From positions 4,600,453 through 4,664,452 of the forward strand of contig OZ025208.1 of the NCBI GenBank assembly GCA_964019055.1: DNA of 64,000 nucleotides. The letters run 5' to 3'. Source of the DNA: Anthopleura xanthogrammica. Its lineage: Eukaryota > Cnidaria > Anthozoa > Actiniaria > Actiniidae. A program made the position numbers and the translations under genes. How positions within the stretch are numbered: position 1 is the first letter of the stretch; the number at the start of each line of letters is the position of its first letter. Below are positions 2,912 to 61,922 of this stretch, one piece after another. Under the pieces are notes generated by a model, which ran no database searches, was not told where the DNA came from, and worked only from the letters and a program-made list of their open reading frames with translations.

Positions 2912-3638
2912 CCTTAAGAATGATAGCAGAATGGTCTGATTTAAGAGAGGGAATTATGTTAACAACATCAATGTCCTCTTGGAGGCTATCACTTATAAAC
3001 CAGAAATCCAGTCTCCTTTGAATGGGAGGAGTCTTTTGCCTCCAAGTAAAACGGCGTGTGTTAGGATGTCGGATTCTCAAAATATCTATTAGGTCACATT
3101 TCAACATAACGTCTTTTATTTTTTCAATGGAACTGCTTTTTAATTGGGGGTTGCCTCTACAACAGTCCATGTCAACATCAAAGTACAAATTAAAATCACC
3201 TCCCATGATTACATTCCTCTCGGGTCGAAAGTCATATTCTTCCATTTTGTTTGAGAGCAGAGAAAAGAAATGGTCTTTTTGATTAAGTGTATTGGGAGCA
3301 TATATATTAACAAGCAGAAGCAGGCAACCTTGTACTATGGCCTCAAGAAAGATATACCGGCCATTAGTGTCAGTGTCAATATTCATAAGCTCAAACTCTA
3401 AATCATCTCTAATTAGAATCATTGTACCTCTGCTATGTGTTGTGCCGTGGGAATAAAATACTTTACCCTTCCATTGCATTTTCCAAATGTTTTCAATTTT
3501 CGAAGTGCTATATGTTTCTTGCAGAAAAATAATGTCCACTTTCTTACTGTTCAACCATATAAATATCGATTTTCTTTTGTTAGGAGAACGAAGCCCTCGA
3601 ACATTAAGTGAGAGAAAAGTACAATTATGTAAGCTCAT
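2847..3638 (-). pseudogene. LINE ORF2 APE-type endonuclease domain
   Basis: 263-residue ORF. The start (TFLSLNVRGLRSPNKR), IIFLQETYS, the GGDFNLYFDVDMDC block and the terminal KSDHSAIILKV are the hallmark blocks of the exonuclease-endonuclease-phosphatase fold that nicks target DNA for L1-type LINEs. Metal-binding (QET, GDFN) and catalytic His (SDHSA) residues are present. After the SDH block the ORF drifts out of frame (RIEYTETWTF) while the overlapping RT ORF gives the expected continuation (ELNTQKHGPSFWRF), so one frameshift lies near 2850-2910. The Met at 3638 is a natural ORF2 start about 325 bp after ORF1 ends. Confidence 0.88.
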
Positions 3639-3962
3639 TGTTTGAATAGATTATTGTTAAGAGCATATTATTCCCATAGTGCCGTATAAGCCTTTTATAC
3701 TTAAAATGAACATGATCAAGAATTAACAAAACCTTATGAAAACAATGGAGAAAAAATTTAAATATTGAAGAAATGAAACGAAATAACTTAAGATTAGGTT
3801 TAGATTTCAATTTTTTGTTGTTGAAGTAAATAATGACTTTCTGGCGACGAGAGGTAACGGGAGATATGTGTCTAAGTAATGATACATACCAAGAGGCTTC
3901 TTAGAGCAAATAAAGTTCGGAAATTACGGTGTCTCTCTAATTTTAGCGCTTGGCCGCTTGTC

Positions 3963-9639: not shown

Positions 9640-10230
9640 ATTCCTTTAGTGGATCAATCTCATCCAAACTGTATGCCTTTAATAATTCTTTGTTATCAAG
9701 ATCTATTTGCTCAACTACCACATTATTTTCTGGAACTTGATGGACCTTGGGCATCATATCCATACATGGCTAGGTCATCTGGCTATTCATCTACCAATCC
9801 ATGAGCTAATGGATTATTATAATGCATCATTCCATTTTTCCACATCTGAATGGGGGACCAGTTTCTCTCGGTGCGTACTCTGTGGTGATTAAAAGCCTCC
9901 ATAAATTTATTCAGTGCCTTCTCTATTCTTGGGATAAAGACTAAGTGAAGAGCAAGAAGATGAACAGCTTCATTTACTTGGAGTATTCCAGTGGATTCCA
10001 TGGCATAAAAGGTGTAGTAATAAAGATGGCAAACACACCTGAAAACATCCCGCCACAATCTTTCAATACGCTGATTGTGAGTTGGCGGACCTGCTATACA
10101 ACTTCCTCTCCCTTGACCTCTAGCTTTCACCATGGCATCGCATGCAAGGACATTCTCTACCCCTTGATCCACTCTGATTCTTGATGGCCAGAGATCACCA
10201 TCACAATTAATTGCATTTAAAAAGAGTTCA
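9640..10230 (-). pseudogene. Decayed rve-type integrase (retroviral integrase-like core) fragment
   Basis: The minus strand encodes PSRIRVDQGVEN (second acidic residue in context) and then GPPTHNQRIERLWRDVFRCV, where GPPTHNQRIERLWRD is the block with the third catalytic Glu of rve cores. It continues with AVHLLALHLVFIPRIEKAL and FMEAFNHHRVRTERNWSP, the C-terminal part of a core-domain family widespread in fish and invertebrate genomes, probably transposon-derived. A stop after HGLVDE is followed by continuation in other frames (PDDLAMYGYDAQGPSS, then VVVEQIDLDNKELLKAYSLD). The N-terminal half with the first catalytic Asp is absent. It is a pseudogene fragment with no visible element ends. Confidence 0.75.
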
Positions 10231-11349
10231 AGAACAGTTTCTGAAAGGTTGTTTGAACGTTGAATAAGGGGTTGAATGTTGAATAAGGGGTTGAACGTTG
10301 AATAAATATGGTTGAACGTTGAATAAATATGGTTGAACGTTGAATAAAAGAGCTGAATTGAATATTGCTACGATCGGCTTGCCATAGCTAATCGTTTGAA
10401 GAAATTCTTTGGTCTATAACAGAAGTCACAAGTGGAAAGTCATCTCATTGTGGTTCATACTGCAAAACTGGTTATTATGTGTTCTTATCCTGACAGTTTC
10501 ATTTCTTTTGATGTTTGCGATCTTCTAAAATGCAAGGTGTTTGGAGGTCTTCTGATGCCACTCCATGTTTATGACATTCTACATAATATAATACTCGAGA
10601 CATGGGGACTAATAGCGAAATATCTATCCAGTTGCCACAGGTTAGTTTATCCATTTTTTAAATGCTTATATATTTTATTTTAAGGAATGGTAGATATTAT
10701 ATTTGTAGTCCTATATCAAAGGTTTAATATTTATTTTTATTCGAATTCTGTGGTGCGTTCACATTCGCGACAATCATCGGTATTTCTCCTGCAGGATTAT
10801 ATATTTTTTGTGCTGCTCCGTCGACTTTCCCGCTTCCTTTAACTCTCTCTACAAGTAATAATGTCACCGAAGTAAAAAAGAACATTGCAAAGATAGGATA
10901 ATTGAAACTTTTGTTCTTAATAAATCTTTGAAGCATTTCAATAACACAACCAGTTAATTTAGCAAGAAAGATCTTAGCAAATAGCACTAAATAGGGAGGG
11001 AGGTATTCTTTGTTTTCCTTTTTTTCATAAATATTTGTTATTGCTATAGCTGTTATTACAGTTGAGCCCATAATGATATTTTCTTTTGTTTTAAGAAATC
11101 ATACAAGTCTGGCTATCATGTAAATACAATGCTTGTTGTCTCATTTGCATCTCATTTGCATGCATACATAATAACTGCTTTAAGAACGAAATAGTCAATA
11201 CCATTTCATGCATTTGTTGTTTTCACTCTAACGTCTTGATTTTTGAATATAGGGAACCTCTAATCCATTAATTTGGCCATGAGAGGGGTAATGGTGTTTG
11301 TTGATGACGAGCTGTAAGTACCTGTAACAACATCATTTATTTAGCTTAT
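10231..11349. other. Mostly non-coding gap with a tandem repeat and weak ORFs
   Basis: Contains a 20-22-bp tandem repeat at 10255-10346 (GGTTGAACGTTGAATAA followed by GG or ATAT, about five copies). A plus ORF (10432-10683) and a minus ORF (10724-11071, 115 residues with two hydrophobic stretches) match nothing I recognise. I see no other feature. Confidence 0.5.
10724..11071 (-). CDS. Hypothetical 115-residue membrane-like ORF, unrecognised
   Basis: Starts MGSTVITAIAITNIYE, has hydrophobic stretches around residues 25-45 and 60-75 (YPIFAMFFFTSVTLLLV) and ends with PQNSNKNKY. No motif, splice site or neighbour supports a function. It may be an exon of a larger gene or a chance ORF. Confidence 0.2.
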   Translation of the reverse strand: MGSTVITAIAITNIYEKKENKEYLPPYLVLFAKIFLAKLTGCVIEMLQRFIKNKSFNYPIFAMFFFTSVTLLLVERVKGSGKVDGAAQKIYNPAGEIPMIVANVNAPQNSNKNKY

Positions 11350-11683: not shown

Positions 11684-11708
11684 CAGAAATTAAAAACAGT
11701 ATTCAAAC

Positions 11709-14700
11709 ATGGCGGCGTCAACACATCATCTTAGTGCTCTGCACTTTCTCCGAACAAAACTCCTAATGCAGCTCCTTTTCACGATTTTACTACAAGGATT
11801 CTTGCTCAAAACTGTCAAGAGATATCAGAAACTCGCCGATTTACACCTCGGCAAAGATTTATCAACCATAAACACTCCTAATATGAATTTAGCTCCTCGT
11901 TCACAAAAATGCCGTAGTAATCAAGTTTTCTGCCCAACAAGACAAAGAGCATCAAGATCTTTAAAAATCTTTCAGTATTGCTGCACTGCCTCAATATTGA
12001 TTCTTCTTTCCGGTGATGTATCGCCAAATCCTGGTTGGATGAAACCATGTCTACAGAGACCTGGCCTAAAGATTGGTCACTTGAATATCAGGAGTCTACC
12101 AAAACATCTAGATGAATTGAAAATTCTCCTCAACGAAAATCCATTCGATGTTATCTGCCTTAACGAAACCTGGCTAAACAGCACTTGGAATGATAATGAA
12201 CTCTCTATCGAAGGCCACAGCTTTATCAGGAAAGATCGTAAAGATGAACAGCGAGGCGGTCGGACTGCGATTTATTACAAATCAAATCTCGTTGCCCGCC
12301 CAAGAACTGACATTAGCTCTCAAGATATTGAATCATTATGGCTTGAATTTACGTTTCCAAATAAGAGTAAAATGCTGGTGTCTTCGGTCCACCGTCCACC
12401 AAATGCTGATGTAAATGATTTTATTCAGAAATTTGAAAGTCAATTTGATTACACCTGCAGTGAGATGAAAGAGTCAATCAAACTTGGGGATCTAAATTGC
12501 GACCTTGCTGCTAAGAAAAAATCCACCGACACCAAAGAACTCTGTAAGTTATTTAAAGCCTATCAGTTTATTCAGCTTATTAGTGATCCGACAAGAATTG
12601 TCGAAAGGTCGTCAACTCTCATTGACTTAATATTTACTACAGACAGTGAACAAATTGTTGATTCTGGCGTTGTAGAATGTTCCATTAGTGATCACTCACT
12701 TGCTTACATCGTTAGAAAAGCCAAAGCTCCCAGGGGTCCGATAAAAACTATCAACTGTCGCAGCTACAAAAACTATACGGCTGAAAATTTCACTAGAGAT
12801 TTGCATGAAGCCTCCTGGGATACTGTTGATTCATCCTTAATGGTTAATGAAGCTTGGGTCTCTTTTAGAGAAACATTTATCACCATAGCTGATCGGCACG
12901 CTCCAAAGTGCACCAAGAGAGTTCGTTCGAATACTCTTCCTTGGATGACTGATCAAATAAGAGCGCTTATTACTCAGAGAAACTTTCATCAAAAAAAAGC
13001 ACAAAAATCAGGATCATCAAATGACTGGCAGGCCTTCCGCTCTCTTAGGAACAAGATAACTGTCAACATCAAAGAAGCAAAAAGGGTGTATTACTCTAAC
13101 CTGATTGAGGAGAATAAGAGCCACTCCAGCAAATTATAGAATGCGATAAAGTCAGCAATTGGCACCGCTACTGGACACACTCAGATTCAATCCCTAGAGA
13201 TCGACGGCGAACAAGTTACTTGTTCTAAGCAAATCTCGGCTAGCTTTTCTGCCTTCTTTAAATCCATAGTTGGCAACCTGCGACAGACCCTTTCAGTACA
13301 ACCACTCTCACCAAAGTCTGGTCTTTTAAAGACCGAAGCTAAGTTCAAGCTATCTCTAATAACTGCAGAATTTGTCTGCAAACAGCTGAAATCACTGAAC
13401 TCCAAAAAGTCTTCTGGTCTAGCAGATATTCCCACAAGACTTGTTAAGGACGGGGCTGTAGCTCTAGCTGGACCATTATCAATGCTTATGAACAGGACCA
13501 TAAACGAAGGAACCATACCAACTGACTGGAAACATGCTATAGTCACTCCCGTGCATAAATCTGGCCCTAGGACAGATCCATCAAACTATCGTCCGATTTC
13601 AGTTCTTCCGATTTTTTCAAAAATACTCGAGCGTGCTGTTCACCGCATGGTCTATGACTACCTGCAGGAGCACAAGTTTCTATCTCCTCTTCAATCTGGC
13701 TTCCGGCCACTACACTCAACATCGACATGTCTCACCCATGTTACAAACGCTCTACTTGAGAACATTGATAAAGGTCTACTAACTGGACTAGTATTTCTAG
13801 ATCTTAGCAAAGCGTTTGACACACTCGATCACGCTATTATGCTAGATAAGCTAACTGCGCTCGGAATGAATCGCTCTGCTGTTCAATGGTTTAGGTCTTA
13901 TTTGACTATGCGCACTCAAAGTATCTGCACAAACGGAGTTACGTCTGCACCACAACCCATATCCTTTGGGGTTCCTCAGGGTAGCGTATTAGGCCCGCTA
14001 TTATTCATCATCTACATTAATGATCTGCCTAAGATAGACCTAGGTTGTAACATCGAGCTCTATGCTGATGATACTCCTATCTACTTTGCAAGTAAGTCAG
14101 TCAATGATATTCAAACCCAGCTAAGTTCCAACTTGATTAATATCATGGGCTGGCTTCAGACCAACTGTCTTATACTTAATCTAGCTAAAACTAAGATCAT
14201 GCTAGTTGGCACGCACCAAAGGATCTCGGCAGCTCAAAATATAGAAATTGACATAAATAACAAGTGCTTAGAAAGGGTAGTTAAGTTTAAATATCTGGGG
14301 GTCCTTTTAGATCATACTCTGTCCTGGAAGGACCATGTCGAGTACATTGGTAATAAAATCTCGTCTAGACTGGGTATACTCCGCCGAGCATGAAAGGTTC
14401 TGCCTAGATCTACCTGTATTATGTTGTATAATACCTTAGTTTTGCCATTGTTTGACTATTGCGCACCAGTCTGGGACAGCTGTAGCAACGGAAGTAAAGC
14501 TTATCTGGACAAGCTGAACAGGCGTGCTGCCTCTATCATTGAAGGACGATCTCTCGGAGCCGATGAGCTGAAACCTACGCTAAGCTGGCCCAGCCTTGAA
14601 GCGCGCAGACAATATCTGAAATGTTTACTGGTTTACAAATGCCTCCATGGTATGGCACCAGTTTACTTGCTGTCCGAATTCAAACATGTGCATGAAATCC

Positions 14701-14877
14701 ACAATTATAATACCAGAGGCCGTAATATGCTGCGCCCACTGTCGTGCACACTTCTAAGTATCAGGGCTCTTTTAGGATTAGTGGGGTTCGGGCATATAAT
14801 GCCCTTCCTTGTAGTCCTAGAGAAGTTGACTCACTCAAGGAATTTAAACTTAAGCTCAAACGCCATCTTAAGAATAT
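11709..14877 (+). pseudogene. LINE endonuclease-reverse transcriptase polyprotein with two in-frame stops
   Basis: One frame runs from ATG 11709. Residues 1-100: Met-rich leader with a hydrophobic stretch (SILILLSGDV) and a 2A-like box. Residues 120-350: APE endonuclease (KIGHLNIRSLPKHLDELKIL, VICLNETWLNS, LGDLNCDL, ISDHSL). A TAG at 13137-13139 interrupts it, but the frame continues: RT from about 13400 with PSNYRPISVLPIFSKILERA, FLDLSKAFDTLDHAI, FGVPQGSVLGPLLF and ELYADDTPIYF (both box aspartates intact). A TGA at 14391-14393 (RRA*KVLP) is the second stop and could be a CGA-to-TGA change. The C-terminal domain follows (LYNTLVLPLFDYCAPVWDS); a frameshift near 14750 moves the last block (GVRAYNALPCSPREVDSLKE) to another frame. 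Lesions are few, so inactivation is recent. Confidence 0.88.
12012..12038 (+). other. Degenerate 2A-like (ribosome-skipping) box in the LINE leader
   Basis: Residues 102-110 read GDVSPNPGW after a hydrophobic run, where the 2A consensus is D-V/I-E-x-N-P-G-P. Functional 2A boxes are established knowledge for some APE-type LINEs with exactly this placement before the endonuclease. Here Glu is Ser and the essential last Pro is Trp, so skipping is probably lost. Confidence 0.55.
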
Positions 14878-15097
14878 GAACTAACTAGGGGTAGGCAGGG
14901 GTGGGATTTTAAGTGACATAAGGGATTGTCTGATTATGGACTAACTGTTGTTAAGTAATTTATTACGTAATTGTAAAGTTCGTGTTTTCGTGCTCGTGAT
15001 ATGTAAACTAGTTATGTTACATCAGGCCTCCTTTTAAACTAGCTGTTGCTAAATAGAATATGGCTGTATAAATATTGATTTAAATAAAAAATAAAAA

Positions 15098-17353
15098 AAT
15101 TCAATGGGCCTCACACAGCACGTCAATCAGCCAACACATAAGGGTGGCCATACCCTTGATCTGGTTATCACCTGTGTCATTTAAGACTCCTACGACTTGA
15201 CACTATTTATCGGATCATGCTGTAGTATTTTGCAAGCTTAAATCTAACAAGTCACCTGTTAAAGTCAAGGAGACCTCCTAACGGAAGCTAAGATTGATTG
15301 ACATGGATGCTCTATCTGATGATCTTAGGGACTCTCACCTATGTAACAAGCAATTCACAGATGTCGATGAGTTGGCCCATTGCTACAATTCTACACTCTT
15401 ATCCTTACTTGATAAACAAGCACCCTTGAGGACTAAATGTGTCGTTGACGTTGGCGCTCCTCTAAATTGGAACAAGATTTGAAAACCTTCGAATCCATAA
15501 AAAAACAGGCGCCACATTTGATGAACTTGGCAAGAACTGAGTATTATACCAACCATATTCAGGAGCACAGTTCAGATCAAAGAAAGCTGTTTAATGCTAC
15601 AAAGTCCTTGTTGTGTGAACCGAGTGATGTGAACTTTCCCCCTGACATCAACCCTACACAATTAGCGAACGATTTCGGGAAGTTCCTTATGCAGAAGATT
15701 GAAAATATTAATATTTCTCTTGATGAGCTCTCGTCGCCATCATTACCTGTTGTTGTTTATTGCTTTCCTGCAGATGGAGTACTCTTTAAGGAATTCAAGA
15801 TCTTGTCTGAGGAAGAAGTACGTACCTTGATTAAGAAGGCAGCAAAGAAATCATGTTCATTAGATCCAATACCGACATGGATGGTGATTGAACTCTTAGA
15901 TTTACTACTTCCAGTTATCACAAATATGATTAATTAATCATTTGAGTCTGGCCAATTTGCTGAACCGTGGAAGGAGGCACATGTACTGCCCTTACTTAAG
16001 AAGGCTGCTCTTGACACGACTTTTAAGAACTTTCGCCCTGTTAGCCATTTGCCATACATCTCAAAATTATCAGAGAGAGCAGGGGTGAACCAACTGATTG
16101 AACACATGACTTCCAATAATTTACATTCTCTATTGCAGTCAGCTTATAAAAAGAATCACAGCACAGAAACCGCTCTTCTCAAGGTGAAGAACGACATTCT
16201 TATGTCTATGAACGAAAAGCATGTAACGTTACTTGTCCTTCTCCACCTTAGTGCTGCCTTTGACACCATACATCCCAATATTCTTATTAACCATCTGGAG
16301 TTTGAACTTGGTGTTAGAGATGATGCACTTGCCTGGTTCACATCTTATCTGTCTGATTGCTGTCAGCGTATTTCCATCAAAGGAGGTATATCTGATAAGT
16401 TCCTACTCAAGCATGGCGTACCTCAAGGATCCTGCCTTGGTCCGCTTTTGTTTACGGTTTACATGCGCAAGCTTTTCCAGATTGCTGCGTCACACCTGCC
16501 GAATATTCACTGCTATGCGGATGACACACAACTCTACCTATCTTTCAGCCCAAACGAGGAATGTGGAGCAGAAGAGGCTGTTCTATCGATGTCTAAATGT
16601 ATCAAAGCCATACGGAAGTGGATGATTGAAAACAGACTTATGATCAATGATAAGAAAACTGAACTCTTAGTAATAGGTACGATGCAGCAATTAACTAAAG
16701 TTGATATTAGTCACATTGTTGTTGGATCATGTGAGCTCTGCCCTCAGTCTGTCATCCGGAACCTTGGATCCTGGTTTGACTCTAATCTTTCAATGTCTAG
16801 TCATATTAGTAAAACTTGCAGCTCAGCATTTTACCATCTGCATAATATTTGGCGCATATGCAAGTATTTGTTGTTGGAGACTACACAAATTCTAGAACAT
16901 GCTTTTATTACAAGTAGGATAGATTATGGCAATAGCCTATTATATAGTCTTCCTGATTGTCAACTGAATAAGCGTGCTGAACGCCACTGCATGCAAGACT
17001 GATCTGCCTTGCACCAAAAATATAGTCAAGTCACACCAATATTGCGAGAATTACATTGGCTACCTATAAGTTATATAATCAGTTTTAAAATCCTTTTGAT
17101 TACATTTAAGGCAATTCACGGTTCAGCTCCATTGTATTTAAGCAATCTGTTAACGATTAAGTCTTCTACTTATAGCCTTAGATCTTCAAATACGCTCCTT
17201 CTGAGTGTTCCTTCCGTTCGATCTAAGCTGACATTAGGTGATAGGGCCTTTGCATTTGCTGCTCCTAAACTATGGAATAACTTACCGAAAGAACTACGTT
17301 TAATCCAGTGTATTGAAACATTTAAATATCTTTTTAGGCAAGCTTATGGCTAG
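15098..17353 (+). pseudogene. CR1 LINE, 3' part: end of endonuclease, RT and C-terminal domain
   Basis: Resumes at the AATTC with MGLTQHVNQPTHKGGHTLDL, then LSDHAVVFCKLKSNKSPVK. RT blocks: FRPVSHLPYISKLSERAGVN-like sequence at 16035, VLLHLSAAFDTIHPNIL (the usual DLSAAFDT has His for Asp), GVPQGSCLGPLLFTVYM and HCYADDTQLYLSF. C-terminal domain at 17009-17353 (LHWLPISYIISFKILLITFK, ending FKYLFRQAYG). Stops and frame changes at about 15482, 15937 and 17002 break it. In life it would have copied CR1 RNA; this copy is dead. Confidence 0.85.
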
Positions 17354-22137: not shown

Positions 22138-22383
22138 CCGCTCCGGAAAATATAGCTACAACTGAGTAAAAGAGAGACCTGAACACGTTCAAATATGATA
22201 CAAGTGCACGTGCAATCATGAATTCACACTCGGGTTATTTGTGGATAATGATTCTTAATTGCAAGCATGACCGATAGATAATTATCCCTTTGTTAGTTAA
22301 ATACCAATCATCTCAAACATCATATAAATCACAAGTAGATACATAATTTGATCGATGTTCATGAATATTAGTATCGATGAACA

Positions 22384-23611
22384 ATGGACCTCCCGCCATT
22401 TCCAACTTTCATTCTTATTACACTTCTTCCCATCATCACAATCATAAAAGTTCTTCAAAACCGAAGACAAGTTCCTATCGTTCCTATGCTACCCATGCAT
22501 GTTCTTGGTAATGTTCTGTTGACACTAGCTACACTGCTCCCTGTTATCCCTTTAAATGCTGGACATGGTTTACTGGCAAGGCTTTTTGGAAACTATCAGC
22601 CTGCAGGCCGTAATAATGGTCGAGATGTGAGACATCTACTGGGGATCCATCCACATATCTTCTGGTACATGACGGGGGAAACCCCTGAATCTTTTGATGC
22701 TATCGTTCAAAGAATAGGAATAAAAGTAACACTTCCAAGACATACTCCTAGAGCACCAACGACCAATAGAAGAAAATCCTGTATACTTGATGTGGACAAC
22801 AGAGTCCTCTTAGTTGTTATATGGTTGAGACAGTACTTGAAACTTCATGTTCTTGTGTCAATCTTCGCCGTTAGCAAAAGCACAGTTGATGAAGAAATAT
22901 ATCATGTAGTACCAATCCTGTTTACCTGCTACCGTAGTTTTATAACCTGGCACTCACTAAGAAGATGGAGTGACTACCTGGACAAGCTTCCTCACTTCCC
23001 TAATGCTGTGGGAATGATAGATGCCACAGCACATAGGATTCAAAGACCTTCTGGTCCAAGACAAGCCGACTTCTACAGGGGAGACAAAAAATATCATTTT
23101 ATGAGTATGCAGCTTATCATTGATGCAGATGGATTAATTGTTCTTCTTGTGGCTGGGTAGGTTCATCTTTTAAGCGTTTTGATTTTTACTCATAATTTTT
23201 CAGTTTATGTAACACAATCTAATTTATAGGTTTCCAGGCCATATGAACGATGCTGGAACGTATAGACAACTTCCTGCAATTGGACGTGGGAGGTGTGCTT
23301 TACCAAGACGGGCAAGGTTGCTGGCTGATGGAGGATACGCCAGCACTCCACCCCTTATCAAACCAAGACGAATAACCCATAACAGACGACAAAGGGATGC
23401 TAACAGGACCTTGAGGTCTCTACGCATCCGTGTAGAGCATACAATCGGGTGTATCAAGATATATTTTGCAACCACCGATATTTTTCGCCACGAGACCATT
23501 TCAGCCTCGTGTTGTAGCTACTTGTGGTCTTCTCACAAACAGAAGAAAAAGACTTCTGAGAGCAATCTTATCTTCTTTCAAGATAATTATTATAATTTCA
23601 TGCTTTCTTGA
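22384..23611 (+). pseudogene. PIF/Harbinger (DDE_4-type) transposase, two exons, C-terminal frameshift
   Basis: Exon 1 22384-23156 and exon 2 from 23230 join in frame (VAG then FPGHMNDAGTYRQL) through a 73-bp GT-AG intron. Order: N-terminal region, helix-turn-helix segment (LVSIFAVSKSTVDEEIYHVV, about residues 155-180), then the DDE core: GMIDATAHRI (first Asp), LLADGGYAS (second) and RIRVEHTIGCIK (Glu). All three catalytic residues are present. After TTDIFRHE, near 23490, the frame shifts; the expected end (QPRVVATCGLLTNRRKRLL) is in another frame. DDE transposases of this class cut and paste the element. Probably recently inactivated. Confidence 0.85.
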
Positions 23612-26959: not shown

Positions 26960-27769
26960 TCGTTTTAAATATGAGCTCGGATGCCAAGAAATGCAAAACA
27001 TCCCGTCCCTACCCTAGAAAGTCGTAGTCTAAAATTAGCATAATCCAAAGTTATTTTGTTTACGTTCGATTCTTCGTACGCGGTTCAGCTGTATCATACA
27101 TTTAGACGTCGTATTGTTTCCATATAAAATAACAGTTCATCAGAAGAAAAAGAAAAACTACTTGGACTATTCCAAAGAGATTTTAAACGCTGTCTAGAAG
27201 CACTCGCGACTGTTGTTGACATGTTGAACAGCAATCGGAAATTATCAACTGACAGACAATGGTCAAGACTTACGATTATCACAGCAGTTTTGCAAATACT
27301 ATGCAAGTTAAGGCCTTAGTAAGGTAAGAAGTGACATATTAAGGCTATTTCTTGTCGTAGAAAGTTAAAATAGTAAGATTAGACGATTGAATTCGGCAGT
27401 TGTTTTACTTATTTGAATGATAATAGCACTTGAATCACGTGTCGTAAAACTAGGATTATTTCTGTTACAAAAGATTACTCAAATGACCTGAAAGTCATGT
27501 AACCGGATGTTTGGAAAACATAAAACAGGGTTTCAGAGTTATTAAGCGGATTAGAATCGATTTTTGTACCGAGATCGGTCGACAAAAGCAACTTACGTTT
27601 GAGCGATAAAAATGGCGAGTTTCGGGTGGTCGGTTAAAAACGACATTTTCTCAAAAATAAAAATATATTTTTCTAAAACAACTATATAGTGCACATCTGG
27701 ACCAAATTTGAGCAAAATCGATGAGACTGCCCTGGCCGCGAAATGGCACATTTGTCTGATTTTTCTTAA
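26960..27769 (-). repeat. E1 right terminal inverted repeat
   Basis: Reverse complement of the left arm. It jumps from CACGTGATTC directly to AAGTGCTATTATC, so about 205 bp present in the left arm are missing. Outer end is GAAAAATCAGACAAATG next to TTAA (27766-27769). Confidence 0.9.
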
Positions 27770-28272
27770 AAGCCTTAAAAGGCTTTATTAATCTTATATA
27801 GTAATTAATGAAATGTAGCATTATTATATAAATTATAATTAATTAATTATTTATCTTTTTGTTATTAATATTGCTTATTTTATCATGATTATTGTAAAGT
27901 GTATTTGATCATAATCCATGTAATTTACGCTATATAAATTATTAAATTATTATTAATTAATAATATTACTTAATAGTTTTAGTACATACCAAAGCGGGAA
28001 CTTACATAGATGACATGTTCTCATTGGTTCGCTATCTTGGGATATTCCACTATATTTACCTCCAAAACTCGGGATAATGTCGAACCAAAGATAGCGGCTC
28101 TAAATTCTCGTTTTACCAGTGCTTTTTATAGTGAAATTGCAAAATAATCCACAAAATCTTTTGTAGAAACAGAAGGAAAGCCACAAAATATGATTTTTAG
28201 AAAAATTCAAGGCGTAATAAGTTATGTATGGTAAAAGAAAGCCATTTGTTTTCCTAGATTTCGCCAAACAAG
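27770..28272. other. Gap between E1 and E2, no feature seen
   Basis: About 500 bp of AT-rich DNA separating two transposons of the same family in opposite orientation. I see no coding sequence. Confidence 0.6.
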
Positions 28273-28276
28273 TTAA
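28273..28276. other. E2 target-site duplication, left TTAA
   Basis: TTAA directly outside the inverted repeat, mirrored by TTAA at 35360-35363. Confidence 0.85.
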
Positions 28277-28989
28277 GTGTCATTGTCAGAGAAAACCAGG
28301 CAGAGCCCGCGGATGAAGGTTGGTCGATTTCCTTCAAATTTCTACCATAGATTCTCCTTTCGAAATGATTAAGAATGATGGGTTTCTTGGGTATATTCAT
28401 TTGTTTCTTCCGAGATTTGACCACCCCCCCTTGTTTTTGCTAATTTGCATAAGAAATTTATCTCGAATTTAGGGTTATTTGCATAGGATTTTTGACCTAC
28501 TTCCCATTGATTGTTATCGCTCATACTCTTTGTACGAAATATCCCACATCTGATGAAATGATTATCAACAGATGAGCTGTTTTGGGTAACTTTGGTTATC
28601 ACAACAAATTTTTAATTTTCGCTTCTGAGCAGCTTTGAGAAATGTAGCAATTTTCGGTCATTTAAAAAAAATAATTTCTCCCATGTGCGCGAACGAATTT
28701 TGGAGTAAAACCACTCAATCTGTAGTGTTTCTATAGTAGATTGAAGGCAAATAAATTTTAGGTTGGGACCTATCAACACTTTTGAGCGAAAGGCCATTAC
28801 ATCTGCTAAAAATTTGCATATATTTTACCGCAACTTGTTTACGTTTCGCAGACGTCTCGCATAAAAACTTGTACAAATTCGTATTTTAGCGTTTACATTC
28901 TGTTTTATGTCTGTTTTGATCATCTTTCTGGTGCAGGAACAGGAGATTGAAATAAAAGCATTACATTTTGACTTTGTTTTTGTCTAGAG
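28277..28989 (+). repeat. E2 left terminal inverted repeat (713 bp)
   Basis: Outer end GTGTCATTGTCAGAGAAAAC, inner end TTTTTGTCTAGAG. Matches the reverse complement of 34648-35359. Confidence 0.95.
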
Positions 28990-30138
28990 GATTAACAACA
29001 AAACTCGACTGATTTTTACATAAACAGCTTTCAGTACTGCATATCTTTATTCATTGCAATCACGCATTGCATTAAAGATTTTCCATAGATTAAAAAAATA
29101 GACTTGATATAAAATGAGTGGTATACAAATGATATGCGCTTTTATAAAATTATAAAAGATGCGAATGAAATATGTTGTCAATAGCTTGCTAAGGTAATTC
29201 TTCTAATTCTCACAAACTTAGGTGGTGTTGAACAATCACTTCATGATTTTTGTCTATAAAACAGGTCTTTAGGATATAACTATTCTACGTACAAAAGCCG
29301 TCCATAAGGTAAGATTCATTTAATATGACAAGGGGGAGGGAGCATGAAAAGTTTAGAGCCCCCTTTTACATTTGCCAATTTTTATGTCCCCCAGCGTGTT
29401 GTGTAAAACAATTCAAGGCCTCTCCTTCCAACTGTATTGACCACTAAAAGCCCCCTATAGACCTTACCGAATTTTTAGAGCCCCCCACAAATCTTCATGC
29501 CCCCTCCTCAAACTATTAAATGAACCTTTCCTGAAAGCTAAAGATCAATAAAGTCATGGAGATTTGCAGAGTCAACCTGTTTCAGTGGCCGGATCGTCAT
29601 CCATAGAAAAACAGCAACGATTTTTCCACAACAAGACGGCTTTAGTTGCTTAACCTGACTAAGTAGAACAACGGTTAAAACTCGAATAGTCCATGTTGTA
29701 GTCTATGCAAAAGAAACACTAGAAGTTTTCTGCACACCAAGACAGTCCGAGTATCTAATTTGAATATAGTGTACATTTGGATTCAAGATTCCTAGACTTA
29801 TCAACTTTTTAACAGTAACTTACTAGCATTGTTCTTCATTACGGGGAACCGGAGGTAAGAGTATAGGTGCACGGTACCCTAAAAGTAACCCATTGTAACT
29901 ATTATAATCCATAAAATATCTCAGTGGTGACACAAAGTACCATTTTTGGGGCCTAATGACGCAAGTCCCCCCCCCCCCCTCTCCCTCTACGTAACTGTTC
30001 TAACTGGCGCATGACGTGATCCTTTCAACAGCATAAGCTATAAAAATCAAGCAAGTAACTCAGTTATAAGAGATCATGTCAATACTTTTATCCCAAGCTC
30101 CCGGCAGAACGTTGTGCATACTTCAGGTATCATGTTGT
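28990..30138. other. E2 non-coding segment downstream of the gene
   Basis: 1.15 kb between the left inverted repeat and the stop of the E2 gene. Contains a C13 run near 29968 and degenerate T/C-rich sequence; no coding sequence recognised. It should hold the 3' UTR. Confidence 0.6.
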
Positions 30139-33100
30139 TCACTTGTCTTTCATGCAAGAGCACTGTTTAGCAAGATCTTCAATTGGCTCATAATAGGACT
30201 TCTTTCTCGCGGAAGAACCGTTTGGCTCGACTTTCAACTCTTGACTAATCTCTTTGAGGGCAGCCAGTTTAAGAGATCGAAGTTTGTTGGAGTTGAAAAG
30301 TTCACAAACGTTGTTGACACCAACTACAATGGGATGGTCTAGTGCTACCATATCATTCAGCACAGTGGTTCGTAGATCATCAGCATCAATTTCTGCCTCT
30401 AGTGCTGTGATGTCCTCTTCGGTTACCTCCTCCTCTCCAATACCTCTCTTGTTCTGCAAAACCTTCAGCCTGGAAAACAGGTTTCGTATCTGCTTGGCGG
30501 TCCTCCATTCTTCAGGTGCAAAGACAAACTGCCCTTCTTTATTTTTTGCAACCTTCATTTCCTTGGCTAACTGCGCTGGATCGGCTTTGAGTCTACTTCG
30601 CGCTCCCTCAGCAAATTTGTTTTCTAAGAACTTCTTTACTTTTTCCGTCATTCTTGAAGACTTCTTGGTCGACTTTAGGGCCCAGCCCTGTGCTCTTTTG
30701 CTGGTCTTGTCTGGGGTTTCTCTTAGCTCTCCTGAATCAGTCGTATTTGTGCTCGTGGATGGACGGTGATCATCTTGAACAGCCATACCAGTCACCTTGC
30801 TAGCCCATTTCATACGTATTTTGTCGTACATTGATTCTGTTTCAAGCAGTCGCTTATGTTGGCCGGTTTCAAGATGCTTGTCTAACTCTGACTGAGATGC
30901 AAAAGTCAGGATACACCCTGTCTCTATGCAGGAAAAAATCCTCTTGGTGTTCTTTCTGCTGCTTTTCCCCACCGTCCCGCGATCTTTGATAGAAGAGCAA
31001 AAGGGCTGTATCACCTTCAAACCAGTATCACCCTGTGGTTGGACATTTAGCTCTTTGTACTTCAGGAGGCGTCCAGAACCAATATCAAAGGCTTTCCATA
31101 CTCTAATGCCTGTTTTCTCAAACTTGAAATTGTTCAGGACACTAATCCCAGGAATTTTGCTTCCTTGATTCTCTTCTTTTGTCGTGTCTACCTGTACTAC
31201 AGATGCGCGACAGCCCTTCAGCCCACCATGAGACTCTAAAGCCTCTTTCATCTCTTCTGCAGTGGATACATTATGCTTCTCATCAACCCAACGTCGAATG
31301 TGTGCTTTCATCGATGCCGTTTTGCGGTCGCATATGTCCTTGCCAGACTGCGGTTCTGAAAAATCGTACTGAATCGGTATGATGCCAGTCCTTTCTCCCA
31401 CCTTTTGGAGACTAAGCAGAAGCGTGCCATTGTGATAACAACCGGCGTTATCAGAGCGAAAATATACCTGGCTAATGTTGGGGTACTCGGCTTTCACATT
31501 CTTTAAGAGATCTTCAACAATAGACAATACTGCAAAACTTTCTTGGGTGCACTTGTTAAAAAGATGGATAAAGCATTCTACTTCAAACTCGTTCTTCCCG
31601 TCTCCATCTTTCTTTTGAGTGGTGATCACTGCGCTCACGTGCCAACTTAGACCGCGCTTGCCAAAGAAGTCTTCCATTTTCTCTCGATATTGAATGGGGA
31701 GAAACTTCATCGCCCAATCCATTATGACAAGACAAGATTTATCATCAAGGTTGTTGAGCACGTCTTGTTTTGCTTCTTCTTGATTTCTCGTCCTAAGCAA
31801 GTGTGCCTTCCACGCTTTGATGCTGGTCTTACATAGCGAAAATTCAAATTTGAGGCAAGCTTTCTGTTCTTCTGAAATCTGGACTTCATTTACCAGCTTC
31901 TCGACGCCTTCAAATAGCTGTTCAAGTGCTTCACATCGTTCACACTCGTGCTTGTGGTCATGTTTGCATTTAGCTTTTAACTTTGGGCAGGCTGCATCAG
32001 ATAGGGCATGAACGCTACAATGGTCGCTGCACTGTTCGTTCCTTCCGACGTGTATCTTGTAGTCGGTCTTCAAATACCTCTTTCCAGCTTTCAGTAACTT
32101 CCGAACAACATTCGTATTCATTCCATGCTCAGCTACACTATCAACAATGGACGACATCTTATCAAAAGCTTCTGCTCCCTCGGCAGTAACGTTATCAAGT
32201 CCATGTAAGGATCTTTGCATGGATGCCGAGCACAATTCCACGATCCTGTACAAGGAACGTTCACTTGCTGGATCAAAGTTCTGCTCACTGCAATGCAACA
32301 GGTACTGACTGATGATTCGAGATGGTAGCATCGTTCGGATAACTGCTGGAATGGTAACTCTTTCTCCAGAATCAAGCTTGAGAGTTTTCGTGCCAAATGC
32401 TACATCTTGAACAAACTCTGGTCGTGAAATGTAGTTAATAAAATGGTCGACTTTGACGGGGTCAATTCTAGTGCGATATATAGGTCTTTCAAGAGGTGGC
32501 TGCCCTTTGCCTTCTTCTGTGGCGTGAAGCCGTGCTTGATCTATCCTCCACTTGGATAATCCTGGTATCATTTCTTGTAGCTCGCTCTTGGTAAAGTCGT
32601 TAGCAAATAGCGATAGAATCTGACGTTTGGTCTGCCAAGTGTCTGCCTCATCGAAAGCCTTTACTAAAACATCTACGATACCACTGTGCGGATCGAAGTG
32701 CTTGCGGCTGAATGTCTCTTGAAGTGGCTCTGTTTGTACTGCTCTCCATACCAGCTCCTCTTGGCCAGGTGCTAAAACGGAGAGAGAAGCAGCAATGGCT
32801 TCCTTAGCCTTGCGTACATAGTACCGCTGCTGGGTGTCAGAAACATCATTCCAATCTGTATTCAGGGTTGACTTTACAGGACTATAGCGGCCATCCATGA
32901 TGCTGTCGATGGCTTCATTTAGGTTTGCCCTCTTTTGGTTTTGTGCCTCTATCTCATCAACCCAAATACTTATTTCTGCTTCAGGAATCGAGCTTTGTGA
33001 AGACTGTGAGCACTGCGAACTCTGTGATGATTGTGTAGATTGTGAAGAAACGGCAATCACTTCATCCGATTCACTATCACCACCACTCTCTGCAATCATT

Positions 33101-34492
33101 TTTTCGTTGTCATCTTTTTCTGGAATTATTTCTTTGTGTTTATCTTTTTGCTGCAATGACGGATGCTACAGACAAATTAAAAGAAGGAACGAATGTGTAT
33201 TACAAAAATATATAAGTTTTTACTCATGTAAGTACTTTTAAAACAAGGTCTACTTAACCATAATTACATACCTCTTCGCTATGCTTGGTGCCGTGTGTCT
33301 TGTAGTGATCTTTACGGCAAAGAGTACAAATAGCTACAATGGAATAAACCGCTTTGTAAAAATACTAAATAATTCAAATACTGCGTATTTTCTTGAAAGA
33401 ATATTCCCTCCTTCCTTCCCTACTTTCTTCCTCCCTACCTCCCTTTCTTCATTCATTCACTAACCCACCCATCCAATTCAATCATCAATTGCATGAAAAA
33501 AATTGCATTTTTTTGTAACATACATTTTTACGAATTCCTTGCTTTTTTTCAGTATCACTCTGCACTCACTAGCTCCAATTAGCTGATGTACCCTTAGGTT
33601 TGTGAAGGGAAAGGGGTGGGAGATGTGTGCAAAAATTTTTCCTCCGCATGCATGAATATTTTTCTGGCATTTTCATGTCGCTTTGGGGGTGGGGGTGGGG
33701 TGAGAGTTCTGCACCCCCTCCCCAGATAAAAGATAATAATAATATTAATAATAATAATAATATTTATAATGCGCAAATTCCATTGAAATATGATCAAATG
33801 CGCAATAAAAGAATACAATAACAAATATTGAAATAATGATAAAAATAAAAAATGTAACATAATTATAAAAATAATAACTACTAAAATCAACTAAGAATAA
33901 TTAAAATACTAAAACCTAAAATTATGATCCACCCGATATATACACAAGCATACCAACAGTACATCAGAAACCATAGAATGTTCCGTTCTTATTATGAAGC
34001 ATTTTACACTTGCTGTGAAATTATGCATACGTGTCGAGTTCAAAAAATAAATTGCAGATATTGATTTTTATATAAGAAGCTAATGCTGTTCTTACCTGAT
34101 CCAATGGGAACCACAATGCTGTGTTCGTTATATATTTCTGTTGACATTACAGCATTTACACGACGTGGTTTAGGTAGCTTCCTCTTTTCTCCTTTGTGAA
34201 AAGGATAAGCACATTTGTTGCTCTTACGGCCAGCCCAGTCGGATGTCAGTGACTTTCTGTGTTTTGGACAAACTGTCATTACAGCTTTCTCTTGTGGAGA
34301 AGCAGTGAAATACCCAGCGCGATTCATGATGAGATCTGCTTCGCTTACAACACTTGGACCGCTCACGCCAATGCTTTCGAGAAGAGGATTCATATCTCGA
34401 TTACATGCTACAAGAGGTATTATAGATGTTCCAATACCCACATCATCACAAGGCGATTCGTTAGAAATAAAAGAGCAACTCATCGAACTCAT
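30139..34492 (-). CDS. E2 putative transposase, about 1,161 aa, three exons, intact, superfamily unassigned
   Basis: Exons 34492-34096, 33333-33272 and 33165-30139 join in frame through GT-AG introns (donors GTAAGA and GTATGT). Domains: residues 40-132, Cys/His block (VSGPSVV, VMTVCPKHRKSLTSDWAGRK, CAYPF, VVPIGS); CxxC exon (AICTLCRKDHYKTHGTKHSE); Ser/Gln-rich acidic linker; helix-turn-helix-like stretch (RRQILSLFANDFTKSELQEM); a zinc-binding segment (CSDHCSVHAL, CKHDHKHECERCE); an RNase H/DDE-like core with LVIMDWAMKFLP, FFGKRGLSWHV, VYFRSDNAGCYHN and DFSEPQSGKDICDRKTAS; a C2H2 finger (CIETGC then HLETGQH); and a homeodomain-like end (GWALK...TAKQIRNLFSRL). Acidic residues in IMDW, RSDN and SEPQ or CDR are my candidate catalytic triad. 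Likely role: cut-and-paste transposition of E2. The function is inferred from context and motifs. Confidence 0.75.
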
Positions 34493-34647
34493 GTTAGAAA
34501 TCTTAGTAAGGTTTCACAATTCGACTGGTAGATTATCGGAATATTTCTATTGCCATTGACTACATAGTGACGCGACGATCTAAAAGGCAGTCTGTTAGAA
34601 ATCAAGTAGCTGTCAATTTTTTAAGATTAAAATTTTTTAATTAAAAT

Positions 34648-35359
34648 CTCTAGACAAAAACAAAGTCAAAATGCAATGCTTTTATTTCAATCTCCTGTTC
34701 CTGCACCAGAAAGATGATCAAAACAGACATAAAACAGAATGTAAACGCTAAAATACAAATTTGTACAAGTTTCTATGCGAGACGTCTGCGAAACGTAAAC
34801 AAGTTGCGGTAAAATATATGCAAATTTTTAGCAGATGTAATGGCCTTTCTCTCAAAAGTGTTGATAGGTCCCAACCTAAAATTTATTTGCCTTCAATCTA
34901 CTATAGAAACACTACAGATTGAGTGGTTTTACTCCAAAATTCGTTCGCGCACATGGGAGAAATTATTTTTTTTAAATGACCGCAAATTGCTACATTTCTC
35001 AAAGCTGCTCAGAAGCGAAAATTAAAAATTTGTTGTGATAACCAAAGTTACCCAAAACAGCTCATCTGTTGATAATCATTTCATCAGATGTGGGATATTT
35101 CGTACAAAGAGTATGAGCGATAACAATCAATGGGAAGTAGGTCAAAAATCCTATGCAAATAACCCTAAATTCGAGATAAATTTCTTATGCAAATTAGCAA
35201 AAACAAGGGGGGTGGTCAAATCTCGGAAGAAACAAATGAATATACCCAAGAAACCCATCATTCTTAATCATTTCGAAAGGAGAATCTATAGTAGAAATTT
35301 GAAGGAAATCGGCCAACCTTCATCCGCGGGCTCTGCCTGGTTTTCTCTGACAACGACAC
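34648..35359 (-). repeat. E2 right terminal inverted repeat (712 bp)
   Basis: Reverse complement of the left arm with only scattered mismatches by eye. The E2 gene begins 156 bp inside it (ATG at 34492), so its promoter probably lies in this arm. A conserved ORF in both arms (for example 34840-35025) is most likely not coding. Confidence 0.95.
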
Positions 35360-35363
35360 TTAA
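35360..35363. other. E2 target-site duplication, right TTAA
   Basis: TTAA directly outside the right inverted repeat; the flanks beyond it do not match. Confidence 0.85.
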
Positions 35364-36119
35364 GCTTATGGAGCTTTGAATTTTTTCGTTTACTTGTTGT
35401 TTTATATGGTTATCGCAATAAAATTAATTCAAAAATACATTCACAATATAAAAAAAAGAGTTAACTATAGTATCAAGCAAATTTCTACCCGTTTTACCCT
35501 TTTTACAGAAAATAAACAGAGTGAGATGGAGGCTTGATTTTTAGATAAAAGCAAATCTTACCTGCTAACTGTCGAGCAGTCTTAGAGAGACAAATTCCCC
35601 TATTTATCAGTTTTTGTTGATCCTAAGCTGTCTTGAGTAAATAAAATCTTCAGATTATTCATCATTCAAAGAAGCTGGCGGTGAAATTCTTCAAGCTAAG
35701 GAGGTACAATTAAACACTGACATCCAAAGCATATGCTCCAATCTCTGGCGACTCGTTCAACAGCTGCACTGGAAGTTAACCTAAACTTGAAAGACATATT
35801 TGTCGCTTTTATCACTTTTGATTCTATCCAGCAAGCTTATTTTGTAAGAAAGTATTTTGGAAACTGTCTTTTTTGACAGTTATAAGCCATACCTCTCACT
35901 ATAAGTACTGTAAGTTTGAACTGATGACAGTGAACTAATATGGAAATGAATTGTGCAAGAATCAATGTAACGGCTTCCATATATGGCTGGAGCGTGACAT
36001 TTGTCCTGGCTTTTAACATTCAGAAATAAATTACATAAAGAAACTGTTTTAATCAACGTTTTTAGAGGTTCCCTTATTGGCATATACTAAAACAATTATT
36101 CACCTTGGGCTCAGTGTGG
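35364..36119. other. Gap right of E2, no gene seen
   Basis: About 750 bp of AT-rich sequence; only short minus-strand ORFs without recognisable content. Confidence 0.5.
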
Positions 36120-36449
36120 TATCAGCGAATATTTACCTCGAATAAGACTCGCGGCTCGTAGATTCGGAGACTCGCGGCTCGGAGACTCGCGGCTCGGAGA
36201 CTCGCGGCTCGGAGACTCGCGGCTCGGAGACTCGCGGCTCGGAGACTCGCGGCTCGGAGACTCGCGGCTCGGAGACTCGCGGCTCGGAGACTCGCGGCTC
36301 GGAGACTCGCGGCTCGGAGACTCGCGGCTCGGAGACTCGCGGCTCGGAGACTCGCGGCTCGGAGACTCGCGGCTCGGAGACTCGCGGCTCGGAGACTCGA
36401 GGCTCGGAGACTCGAGGCTCGGAGACTCGCGGCTCGGTAAATATTCACC
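36120..36449. repeat. 15-bp GC-rich minisatellite, about 18 copies, with inverted flanks
   Basis: GGAGACTCGCGGCTC is repeated almost perfectly from 36166 to 36435; two units carry CTCGAGG instead of CTCGCGG. Because 15 is a multiple of three, both strands stay open, giving false Ser/Arg/Glu and Leu/Arg/Ala ORFs. The array is flanked by a short inverted pair (CGAATATTTACC at about 36126 and GGTAAATATTC at about 36436), as if it had expanded inside a small foldback element. Confidence 0.95.
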
Positions 36450-36739
36450 GATATTCACTTCGCCTTCGGCGTATAATTGTTAAATATCTTATGCACATTA
36501 TATTGTCTTCTTGTTTCGTTTACTATTTAGTACTAAATAGTGATAAGTTTCGCACGCTTTTATATTTGTATCTATACACCTGACCCCAGCAGTGTCCAAA
36601 TGTGAGGGCTCACCAAAATACACTATGTGACTCGTAAAATATCCAGTGGTCCATAACATGATATCCTGTTTTGTAGATTTTTTTTCTTTCTTGAAATCCA
36701 TCCTTTGGATAACATACATTATAAAATCTATAATTTAAT

Positions 36740-38220
36740 TTATATGTTTAAATTTTTCATCATAATTTCATTTTTTTTCTTTTGTCCATAGTATATAAAG
36801 AACTGAAGAACAACAAAGAAAACAAAAGGAAATAGACTTTCAAAAGATTCCAAAACGTTTTCAACCTTTGTCACTACTGGCTCAAAGACTGATTTCAAAC
36901 ACTCAAAGTTGTCCTTCAAAGATGGCAAGCAATCTGGCAGCTTTAACGTAATGTTGTTGTTCAGCATTAAGGACTTAGAAGAGTAATTTTGTTGATGGGC
37001 CTCCTTTATCTCCTGACAGTAGGAACCACAATACACCATTGGGAATATTTTCATATTGCTGTAATTTTCTGCTCTCTGAAAGCTCCTGCACAGTTGATGA
37101 TCACATCTTCCACATTTACCACATGCAGAAAGGACACCGCCTTACTCATAGCACTGTCTGTCACCAGTTGGGATGGTCTTGAATTTCCCACATTCATATT
37201 GAAATTCCATTGTTTTTAAGTGTTCTCTTATTTGATTCTCAGGACCAAAGATGTCATAGGCTGTATGTATTAAAAATTTAGTCGATGATTAAAAGTTTAT
37301 CAGCATCTCAGTTAATGTGCCATGATAGAGGCATGTGAATAATTGTCCAAGGTGTTAAAAAAAACCTATCATTGGAAACTCACCGTTCGTATTGCTTCGA
37401 TGCAGAGGCCCGGCTACCTTTCAAGATGGTGCAGGTAACTGTGAAGGGGACTATTCTACCAAAAAAAAAAACCAACTAAATGCTAACTGACATGTAAAAA
37501 TCTAGCCTGTGATACAGAGTGCAGTCTTATAGTTTTCCCTTTTCCTGGTATGCCCATATAAATATAAAACCATCTTTTGAGTGGCCTTGTTTTTTCATGA
37601 AAACCTGAAAATTGTTAAATGTGACTTTAGATTTTTAATTCATTTGAGGTTGGCACTTAGTGCATGAGTCAATGTAAACCCCGGCTTAAGAACAAGGTGC
37701 AAAAATTTAGTGAGGGAATTTGAAACAAATAATTTCCCAGGGGGTATCTAGCCCCTCACTTTACAATGGCAGCTCCTCTGGTCTCTTTTTTCTCTTTTCT
37801 GATTAATAATATCTTTGAATAACTGTTCCTTTGTGTCTTCCTGCAAAAGAAATGGAATAAACATTTATGTTAATTATTTATGAAGTTCTGGAAATTTTTC
37901 AATAAACCCATTTATTCTTAACCAATATGGTTATCAATGGTTAATTAGCCTTTCCAGAATTGAGGAATGAACTGGGGTCAGTGGGATATAATAATCTAAG
38001 GTGTGGTTCCAAAATATTTCATTGCCATTTTTGCAACTTCTACAACATCATCACCATATCTTTGAAACATGCCAGTTGTTAAATAAGACAGTCTCTCTTT
38101 CTCAAGTAGTTTGCTAAAGTCATAAAAATCATCAGATACATGGATCAGGCCATGTGTTCGATATTCCCTCTCTTCAGTGACATTCAGGGTTTCTGGGTAT
38201 TTTATATCTTACGAAAGCTT
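36740..38220 (-). pseudogene. Decayed minus-strand gene of unknown family
   Basis: Three coding-like segments. 38220-37990 minus reads THGLIHVSDDFYDFSKLLEK, then GMFQRYGDDVVEVAKMAMKY, ending in TAG. About 37842-37770 follows a good acceptor (TTTGCAG) with EDTKEQLFKDIINQKREKRD. 37210-36740 minus starts MEFQYECGKFKTIP, has a TAA, then a Cys-rich stretch (ACGKCGRCDHQLC) and PMVYCGSYCQEIKEAHQQ. The Cys spacing suggests a zinc-binding module. I do not recognise the protein; in this context a transposon-derived gene is plausible. The order of segments supports one transcript on the minus strand. Confidence 0.35.
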
Positions 38221-56363: not shown

Positions 56364-56728
56364 TCAGCGGTATCCGCAGTGCCTGTACATATTTCGAATT
56401 TGAACTGTCGTGATATTAAAAAAGGATAATAAAATAAAAGTCTGCATTTCTTTCACTGGAGCAACCATGTAGAGGATGTCGTTGTCCCTAATGTAATGTT
56501 TCGACAGTGCAAATACTTCTTCGATCGGATTCAGTTCCGGGCTATATGGTGGCAAAAACAAAATATGTGCACCAGTGTTTCTTATAAGTGCTTCCACTTC
56601 AGGTATGTGATGAGCTGCATGGTTGTCTGCAAATACAGTTATGGTCATCATTATTATAATTGTTGTTGTTGTGGTTGTTGTTGTTGTTGTTGTTGTTGTT
56701 GTAGTAGTAGTAGCAGTAGTAGTAGTAG

Positions 56729-56759
<31 letters not shown>

Positions 56760-56774
56760 CAGTAGCAGTAGTAG

Positions 56775-56858
<84 letters not shown>

Positions 56859-57875
56859 ATTGGTGAAAAAGAAATGCATGTTGAATGCAATAAAAATAAT
56901 CAATATTAAACTTTTTTTTACAGTGCATCGAAAGAATGTCTTACCCATAACTACCACCGAATTTGAATTGTAGCCATTATAGGGTAAGAGTGATGGCACA
57001 ACATTTTTCCTTAAAAACCGTACGAAACGCCGACCATTAAAATTTGTGTTCTTCATTCTTACGGATAATATACCCGACTCCAATGAAATGGCAGCCATAA
57101 CAGTAGTACAAGGGCCTTTATTTCCCACGTAAGGTCCAATCGCAGGGAATCCACGAAATTGACGGCCATAATTTCTTGCGATAGAGCGATCCTATAAGAA
57201 ACCAAAAATTTGATCAATAACTTAATAAATTTTGAGAAACAATACAACAATTTTATAACAATGTATGTTTCGGCATTCAGTATTATATGCTGTTTTGTGA
57301 TACGATCGCTTATCCTTACATAAAAAGATTCATCAATGAAAACGAGTTCCTCAGGACGATAAACAGACACTGTCTGATGGAACAGATTGACCAGATCATA
57401 TCTTTTTCGTAATGCAATCCTTTTTAACTGTAAAGAAAAGACAACAACAACATTTAATAACGTGAAAAGCTACAGAAGTGCTATAGAACCTGCAAAAATA
57501 TCAACTTACTCGTTTATACGAAAATCCATGGCGTCTAAGCAGAAGACGAAGACTTTCTGCTTCACATGCCGACCCAGTTACCGTAGTCAAATGTTGAATC
57601 ATCTCTTTCACATATGCATTTGGGTTCCTGAGCACGTACTCCATCACCACATTGATTTGTGGCGGTGCTAAAACTTGAGAAATGTTAGGTCTTCCTATTT
57701 TGTATGGTGATACATCTGCGTACACTGTAAATCGGTTGATAATTCTACGGACAGTAGCACTCGATATATCAAGATTTCTAGATATCCACTGTATAGGATA
57801 TCTCAGACCATAATACATCCTTACAATACACCATCTGATATCTTTGCTGTACACCATTTTGCCGTCTCTTCTCAA
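56364..57875 (-). CDS. E5 transposase, Tc1/mariner (IS630) superfamily, DD34E, 327 aa, four exons, intact
   Basis: Exons 57875-57510, 57427-57320, 57191-56945 and 56626-56364 join in frame with GT-AG introns. Residues 1-70: helix-turn-helix ([20 protein letters not shown]) with a GRP-like linker ([10 protein letters not shown]); residues 75-122: second helical domain ([25 protein letters not shown]); residues 123-327: DDE core. Catalytic blocks are VFIDESFY (first Asp), [13 protein letters not shown] (second Asp, restored across the last intron) and [15 protein letters not shown] (Glu, 34 residues later). Length matches mariner-type transposases (about 330-350 aa). The last intron (56945-56626) contains a large GTA/GTT microsatellite. 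If the introns are spliced as predicted, the gene is functional and can move E5. Confidence 0.85.
56660..56862. repeat. GTT/GTA trinucleotide microsatellite in a transposase intron
   Basis: About 200 bp of GTT then GTA repeats with two GTGA interruptions, inside the last intron of the E5 transposase. All ORFs through it are artefacts. Confidence 0.95.
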
Positions 57876-61655: not shown

Positions 61656-61838
61656 CCGGACATTATATGAACACGACATTATACGAACACGACATTTTAC
61701 GAACACCGGACATTATACGAACACCGGACATTATATGAACACGACATTATACGAACACGACATTATACGAACACGACATTATACGAACACGACATTATAC
61801 GAACACGACATTATACGAACACGACATTATACGAGGTT
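61656..61838. repeat. 16-17-bp minisatellite, about 11 units
   Basis: Units of ACATTATACGAACACG with occasional ACCGG insertions and ATATG variants. It shares CATTATA with the adjoining 21-bp array, so one may derive from the other. Confidence 0.9.
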
Positions 61839-61922
61839 GTTCGCGGGCTCATTTTGTTCAGCGGATTTTTATTCAAAGTGGGCTTCCTGTGGTGTTTCCC
61901 AGAAGTCTTTGTTTCTAACAAG

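Follow-up and report, generated by a model that had tools for sequence, protein, structure and literature searches.

Transposons of the Sola3 group are TTAA-specific and, to our knowledge, the Sola group has been little studied, as has TTAA-specific integration outside the piggyBac and Kolobok superfamilies. The piggyBac elements have ends of 12-19 bp with the motif CC[C/T]T (PMC2872659). For Kolobok, two sources describe ends of the form 5'-RR / YY-3' and hosts that include cnidarians (PMC9587614), as well as a THAP domain and, in Xenopus, elements of 6.8-13.9 kb (PMC6004289). Sola elements are characterised by a DDD (three-aspartate) transposase, 4-bp duplications, a length of mostly 2-9 kb and arms of 11-1124 bp (PMC10741241), and a survey of mollusc genomes counted 64 Sola3 elements (PMC10294476). 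The stretch analysed here, referred to as the window, comprises 64,000 nucleotides of the sea anemone Anthopleura xanthogrammica (assembly GCA_964019055.1, contig OZ025208.1, positions 4,600,453 to 4,664,452 of the forward strand). It contains an element of 7,083 bp (positions 28277-35359) that the original prediction, made from the letters of the window, described as an apparently intact transposon with long inverted repeats and a transposase of unassigned superfamily. The analysis indicates that it is very probably a TTAA-inserted transposon that encodes a predicted DDD, RNase H-fold transposase and likely moves by cut-and-paste into new TTAA sites.

Boundaries, copies and target sites

The element lies between two copies of TTAA (28273-28276 and 35360-35363, without strand), and its ends, next to TTAA, begin with GTGTC. 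The left terminal inverted repeat (28277-28989, plus strand; 713 bp) and the right one (34648-35359, minus strand; 712 bp) differ by eight substitutions and one single-base gap, and cease to be similar precisely at the TTAA on either side, the adjoining 40 bases outside being dissimilar; the near-identical arms of the original prediction were thus recovered as described. Internal repeats within the arm amounted to weak pairs only, and an Rfam scan of positions 27000-37000 gave no matches.

Copies were searched for in the 289.8-Mb assembly, where 40 of the 49 candidates of the arm search were scored and the copy counts are consequently lower bounds. At least 41 matches were obtained: 14 pairs with a spacing of about 7.1 kb, three pairs spaced by about 3.85 kb, and seven further matches that are partial or weak. 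The full-length copies are the window copy and at least 13 others, 12 of them with an identity of 99.4-99.7% to that of the window and the remaining one (L051) with 98.2-98.3%, in two pieces. Because the 14 full copies diverge on average by only 0.26% in pairwise comparison, a recent spread of the element is suggested. The differences between the two arms of a copy cannot be used to date its insertion, since each full copy has 4-8 arm-to-arm substitutions and the same end difference is present in all 14. A single base change was found in one end of L049, the other shared ends being conserved among the full copies. An open frame of 1,159-1,161 codons is kept in eight of the 14, and the window copy appears to be intact and may be autonomous, in line with what had been proposed for it. 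The frame was lost through one inner stop in L043, frameshifts in L039, L040, L044 and L046, and an insert in L051; in this last copy, exon 3 carries, at L051:4670-4812, an inserted duplicate of intron-1 sequence from the element itself. When L051 is excluded, the 13 remaining copies vary at 25 of 3,486 coding sites and at 41 of 3,597 others. Changed codons are synonymous in 7 cases and replacement or stop in 16, and because this synonymous share (30%) is close to the neutral one (27%), no selection is claimed. Three non-autonomous copies of 3.85-3.87 kb (L052-L054) have common internal deletion junctions and occupy different sites, so they probably moved in trans. Both ends of these short copies start with GTGTCG; the full copies have one G end and one A end.

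Two of the full copies, L039 and L040, have flanks in common on either side (300 of 300 bp each) and were counted once, so that the 17 copies correspond to 16 independent sites. Fifteen of these sites have TTAA on both sides and the other one, that of L054, has GTAA on both sides. This last case is informative because TTAA is a palindrome. An unoccupied, 97%-identical paralogue of the L054 site (L057) contains GTAA once and the occupied site contains it twice, from which it follows that four target bases are duplicated. Empty paralogous sites exist for the window insertion as well. Its flanks (28127-28276 and 35364-35513) belong to an unclassified repeat, inside which the element inserted. A search with the joined flanks returned 324 candidate places at first look, of which 40 were scored; at least 19 span the query from base 5 or less to base 298 or more with 77-95% identity, and the best six, when read, carry one TTAA each. 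The target-site duplication is 4 bp.

The transposase and its predicted core

The transposase gene is located on the minus strand and consists of three exons, 34492-34096, 33333-33272 and 33165-30139, the third of which includes the stop codon and encodes 1,008 residues. The introns, at 33334-34095 and 33166-33271, have GT/AG borders in all 14 full copies. Joined in phase, as had been predicted, the exons encode 1,161 residues free of stops, and translation may start at the second methionine, which corresponds to a possible second start 9 bp further into exon 1. Two homologues from Oculina patagonica, P0011 and P0134, align over almost the entire joined protein, and P0051, from Exaiptasia, aligns to residues 4-156, spanning the junction between exons 1 and 2. 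Because these independently annotated proteins align across it, the exon join appears to be supported. The named homologues come from corals, anemones, an octocoral and lancelets.

Structure modelling of residues 430-735 of exon 3 (30961-31878, minus strand) predicted a core with the RNase H fold, like that of retroviral integrase and mariner. In the model, D483 (in MDWAMKF; 31717-31719, minus strand) is located in the first core strand, D572 (in RSDNAGC; 31450-31452, minus strand) at the end of the fourth strand and D613 (in GKDICDR; 31327-31329, minus strand) in the helix after the fifth strand. This placement is that of an RNase H active site, and the three residues are predicted to be catalytic. 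In an alignment of 141 rows, the three positions are occupied by D in 139 of 139, 139 of 140 and 138 of 139 rows having a letter, respectively. The predicted fold and the near-invariant triad agree with the RNase H-like acidic blocks that had been read from the sequence.

A Cys/His-rich region that probably binds zinc (31933-32019, minus strand; C383, C400, H402, H404, C408 and C411 of exon 3) and a C2H2-type zinc finger (30856-30930, minus strand; C746, C751, H764 and H770 of exon 3) are conserved in the alignment, and a C2H2 Pfam match was found in three of 38 family members at expectation values (E) up to 0.1. The homeodomain-like tail of the original prediction was not confirmed; the tail gave weak matches to the SAP domain in eight of the 38 members (best E 3.5e-4, with a limit of 0.1).

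Searches with the joined protein of 1,161 residues yielded no Pfam family above the cutoff and six families below it at E up to 10, DUF4254 among them. Across the 38 family members, 35 Pfam families were matched at E up to 0.1, and none of the 25 listed is a transposase by name. Exon 3 had no NCBIfam matches up to E 0.1, the sequence comparison with the PDB gave no convincing relative of the transposase, and neither the 46 pattern matches in viral contigs nor the 71 in prokaryote genomes included a relative. A structural comparison with viral models by Foldseek returned two rows with E of 0.001 or less, a replicase and a polyprotein, with template modelling (TM) scores below 0.1, which were regarded as meaningless. 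No description of the transposon family was found in a literature search whose coverage was without most subscription journals, and none of six motifs, three taken from the transposase and three others, occurs in the searchable literature.

Related elements and neighbouring sequences

For the protein search, 45 of 606 candidates were scored and the locus counts are accordingly lower bounds. At least 45 matches were distributed over 42 loci, 14 of the window subfamily, 13 with 59-65% identity and 15 with 38-56% identity. The sequence TTAAGTGTCNTTG occurs 91 times in the genome, compared with 55 times for the reversed control, and forms 27 adjacent convergent pairs less than 16 kb apart. Twenty-five pairs bracket a transposase locus and two correspond to the short copies L052 and L053. 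This bracketing applies to 13 of the 14 window-subfamily loci and to 12 of the 13 loci with 59-65% protein identity; these form a second subfamily, in which TTAA-GTGTC ends are likewise present at 12 of 13 loci. The joint evidence of ends shared by 14 full copies, TTAA at 15 of 16 sites, empty sites with a single target and TTAAGTGTCNTTG pairs that are all explained demonstrates that the element is not a product of chance.

One copy of the second subfamily is 7,277 bp long, agrees with the window element in its first 13 bases and has arms of 577 and 578 bp that are equal in 578 of 582 columns, TTAA included. Between this copy and the window element, the outer 156 bp of the arms (28277-28432, plus strand, in the window) are equal in 104 of 157 columns, with a score of 101, and 500 shuffles reached at most 24; for the following 404 bp the score is only 59, and 200 shuffles reached up to 39. 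Because the conservation of the outer part exceeds that of the inner arm, the outer part may contain the transposase-binding sites.

Two observations concern other loci of the assembly. A convergent pair of ends 14.4 kb apart surrounds a transposase locus of 59% identity (G000:C2:930543-944971) and may reflect a nested insertion. On contig C2, four places (L069-L072, about 960-1200) match one another at 98-100% across 1.2 kb or more and resemble a portion of the arm at 73-75%; their end reads GTGTCATTGT, with TTTAT before it, and three of them are situated some 17.6 kb past transposase loci with 56% identity.

Further features were noted in the rest of the window. A retrotransposon resembling a long interspersed nuclear element (LINE), whose reverse transcriptase and endonuclease domains lie in neighbouring open frames, is located at 884-3650 (minus strand), and LINE-like pieces at 11694-16999 (plus strand) comprise two frames for reverse transcriptase and one for endonuclease. 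An integrase-core match (Pfam rva_4, E 3e-47) at 9786-10367 (minus strand) marks another integrase-bearing element or gene. Transposase fragments are present at 22381-23157 (plus strand; HTH_Tnp_4 and DDE_Tnp_4, both just under the cutoff), which we take to be Harbinger-like, and at 56367-57191 (minus strand; DDE_3, E 1e-15). An open frame with a SAM domain at 61671-62615 (plus strand) is perhaps a host gene.

Proposed mechanism and comparison with known systems

In the proposed mechanism, the transposase would bind the outer arm with its N-terminal region, which is zinc-binding and helical, and D483, D572 and D613 would hold metal ions. The ends would be bound and cut and then joined to TTAA by strand transfer with a 4-bp stagger, and the short copies would be mobilised in trans. 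The same element could spread by copy-out replication rather than by excision, as the copies are nearly identical and nothing in the data shows excision, but the neighbours of the predicted fold do not decide between the two routes, and copy-out is considered rather improbable. That the copies arose by assembly artefact or segmental duplication finds a basis in the flanks common to L039 and L040, but no other pair of copies shares its flanks, and the empty paralogous sites refute this origin at two insertions; it is unlikely for the rest, and its overall probability is close to nil. The intact frames, the internally deleted passengers and the conserved outer end lend themselves to experiments on how TTAA is selected by a DDD transposase, and the family may offer a further tool for gene delivery.

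With respect to classification, the original prediction had set the element apart from piggyBac and Kolobok, and the features of its ends fail for both. A divergent Kolobok element could account for the TTAA duplication, the conserved zinc-binding residues and, judging from the elements of Xenopus (PMC6004289), the length, but the ends start with GT instead of the RR of Kolobok (PMC9587614), the C/DxxH motif between the second D and the last acidic residue is present in only one of 140 rows and absent from the window protein, and THAP is not among the six Pfam families up to E 10, although a diverged domain could escape detection. This origin is very unlikely, and a piggyBac origin is hardly credible: the TTAA duplication is shared, but arms of 713 bp starting with GTGTC contrast with the short ends of piggyBac (PMC2872659), and a general Pfam scan, made without direct profile comparison, listed no piggyBac family at E up to 10. 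A superfamily of its own, undescribed, TTAA-specific, of the DDD type and distinct from Sola, in the direction of what the original prediction had suggested, would be consistent with the Pfam, NCBIfam and PDB sequence results, with the six motifs missing from the searchable literature and with the GTGTC ends common to two subfamilies. Sola had been omitted from the original prediction, however, and all the traits listed in its description (PMC10741241) are found here, so that a new superfamily is not established; it is a possible but less favoured reading. Slightly more tentative still is its fuller version, an uncatalogued superfamily of cnidarians and lancelets with GTGTC ends, arms of 0.6-0.7 kb and intact, possibly active members in this genome. 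The element is filed, with moderate confidence, as a member of Sola, most likely of the Sola3 group.

Several results weigh against the interpretation adopted here. Kinship with Sola is proposed from described traits, and a table for moths gives AT as the site at which Sola elements insert (PMC5704228), which speaks against TTAA as a general trait of Sola. The exact 13-base ends bracket none of the 15 loci with 38-56% identity and are also missing around one locus of 59%, in both cases by an exact-pattern scan in which borders were not read. In the Foldseek comparison with the PDB, weak by itself, a NurA complex accounts for the only row with E of 0.001 or less (2.7e-4; its probability is 0.38), and Mos1 (5.3e-3) and a mouse mammary tumour virus integrase (7.6e-3) follow in lower rows; RNase H-like chains are mixed with others, none convincing alone. 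No piggyBac, Kolobok-like or hAT structure was among the 50 PDB rows listed in a second look, which proves nothing.

Compared with known systems, the element shares with retroviral integrase and mariner (Mos1, SETMAR) the predicted core fold and the layout of three acidic residues, but there is no sequence match, and target duplication and domain make-up differ. With piggyBac and Kolobok it has the TTAA duplication in common, and with Kolobok cnidarian hosts as well (PMC9587614). The likeness to Sola (Sola1, Sola2 and Sola3) extends to the DDD triad, predicted here, the 4-bp duplication, the length (7,083 bp, and 7,277 bp in the second-subfamily copy) within the 2-9 kb range and the inverted repeats (713 and 712 bp, and 577 and 578 bp in that copy) within the range of 11-1124 bp.

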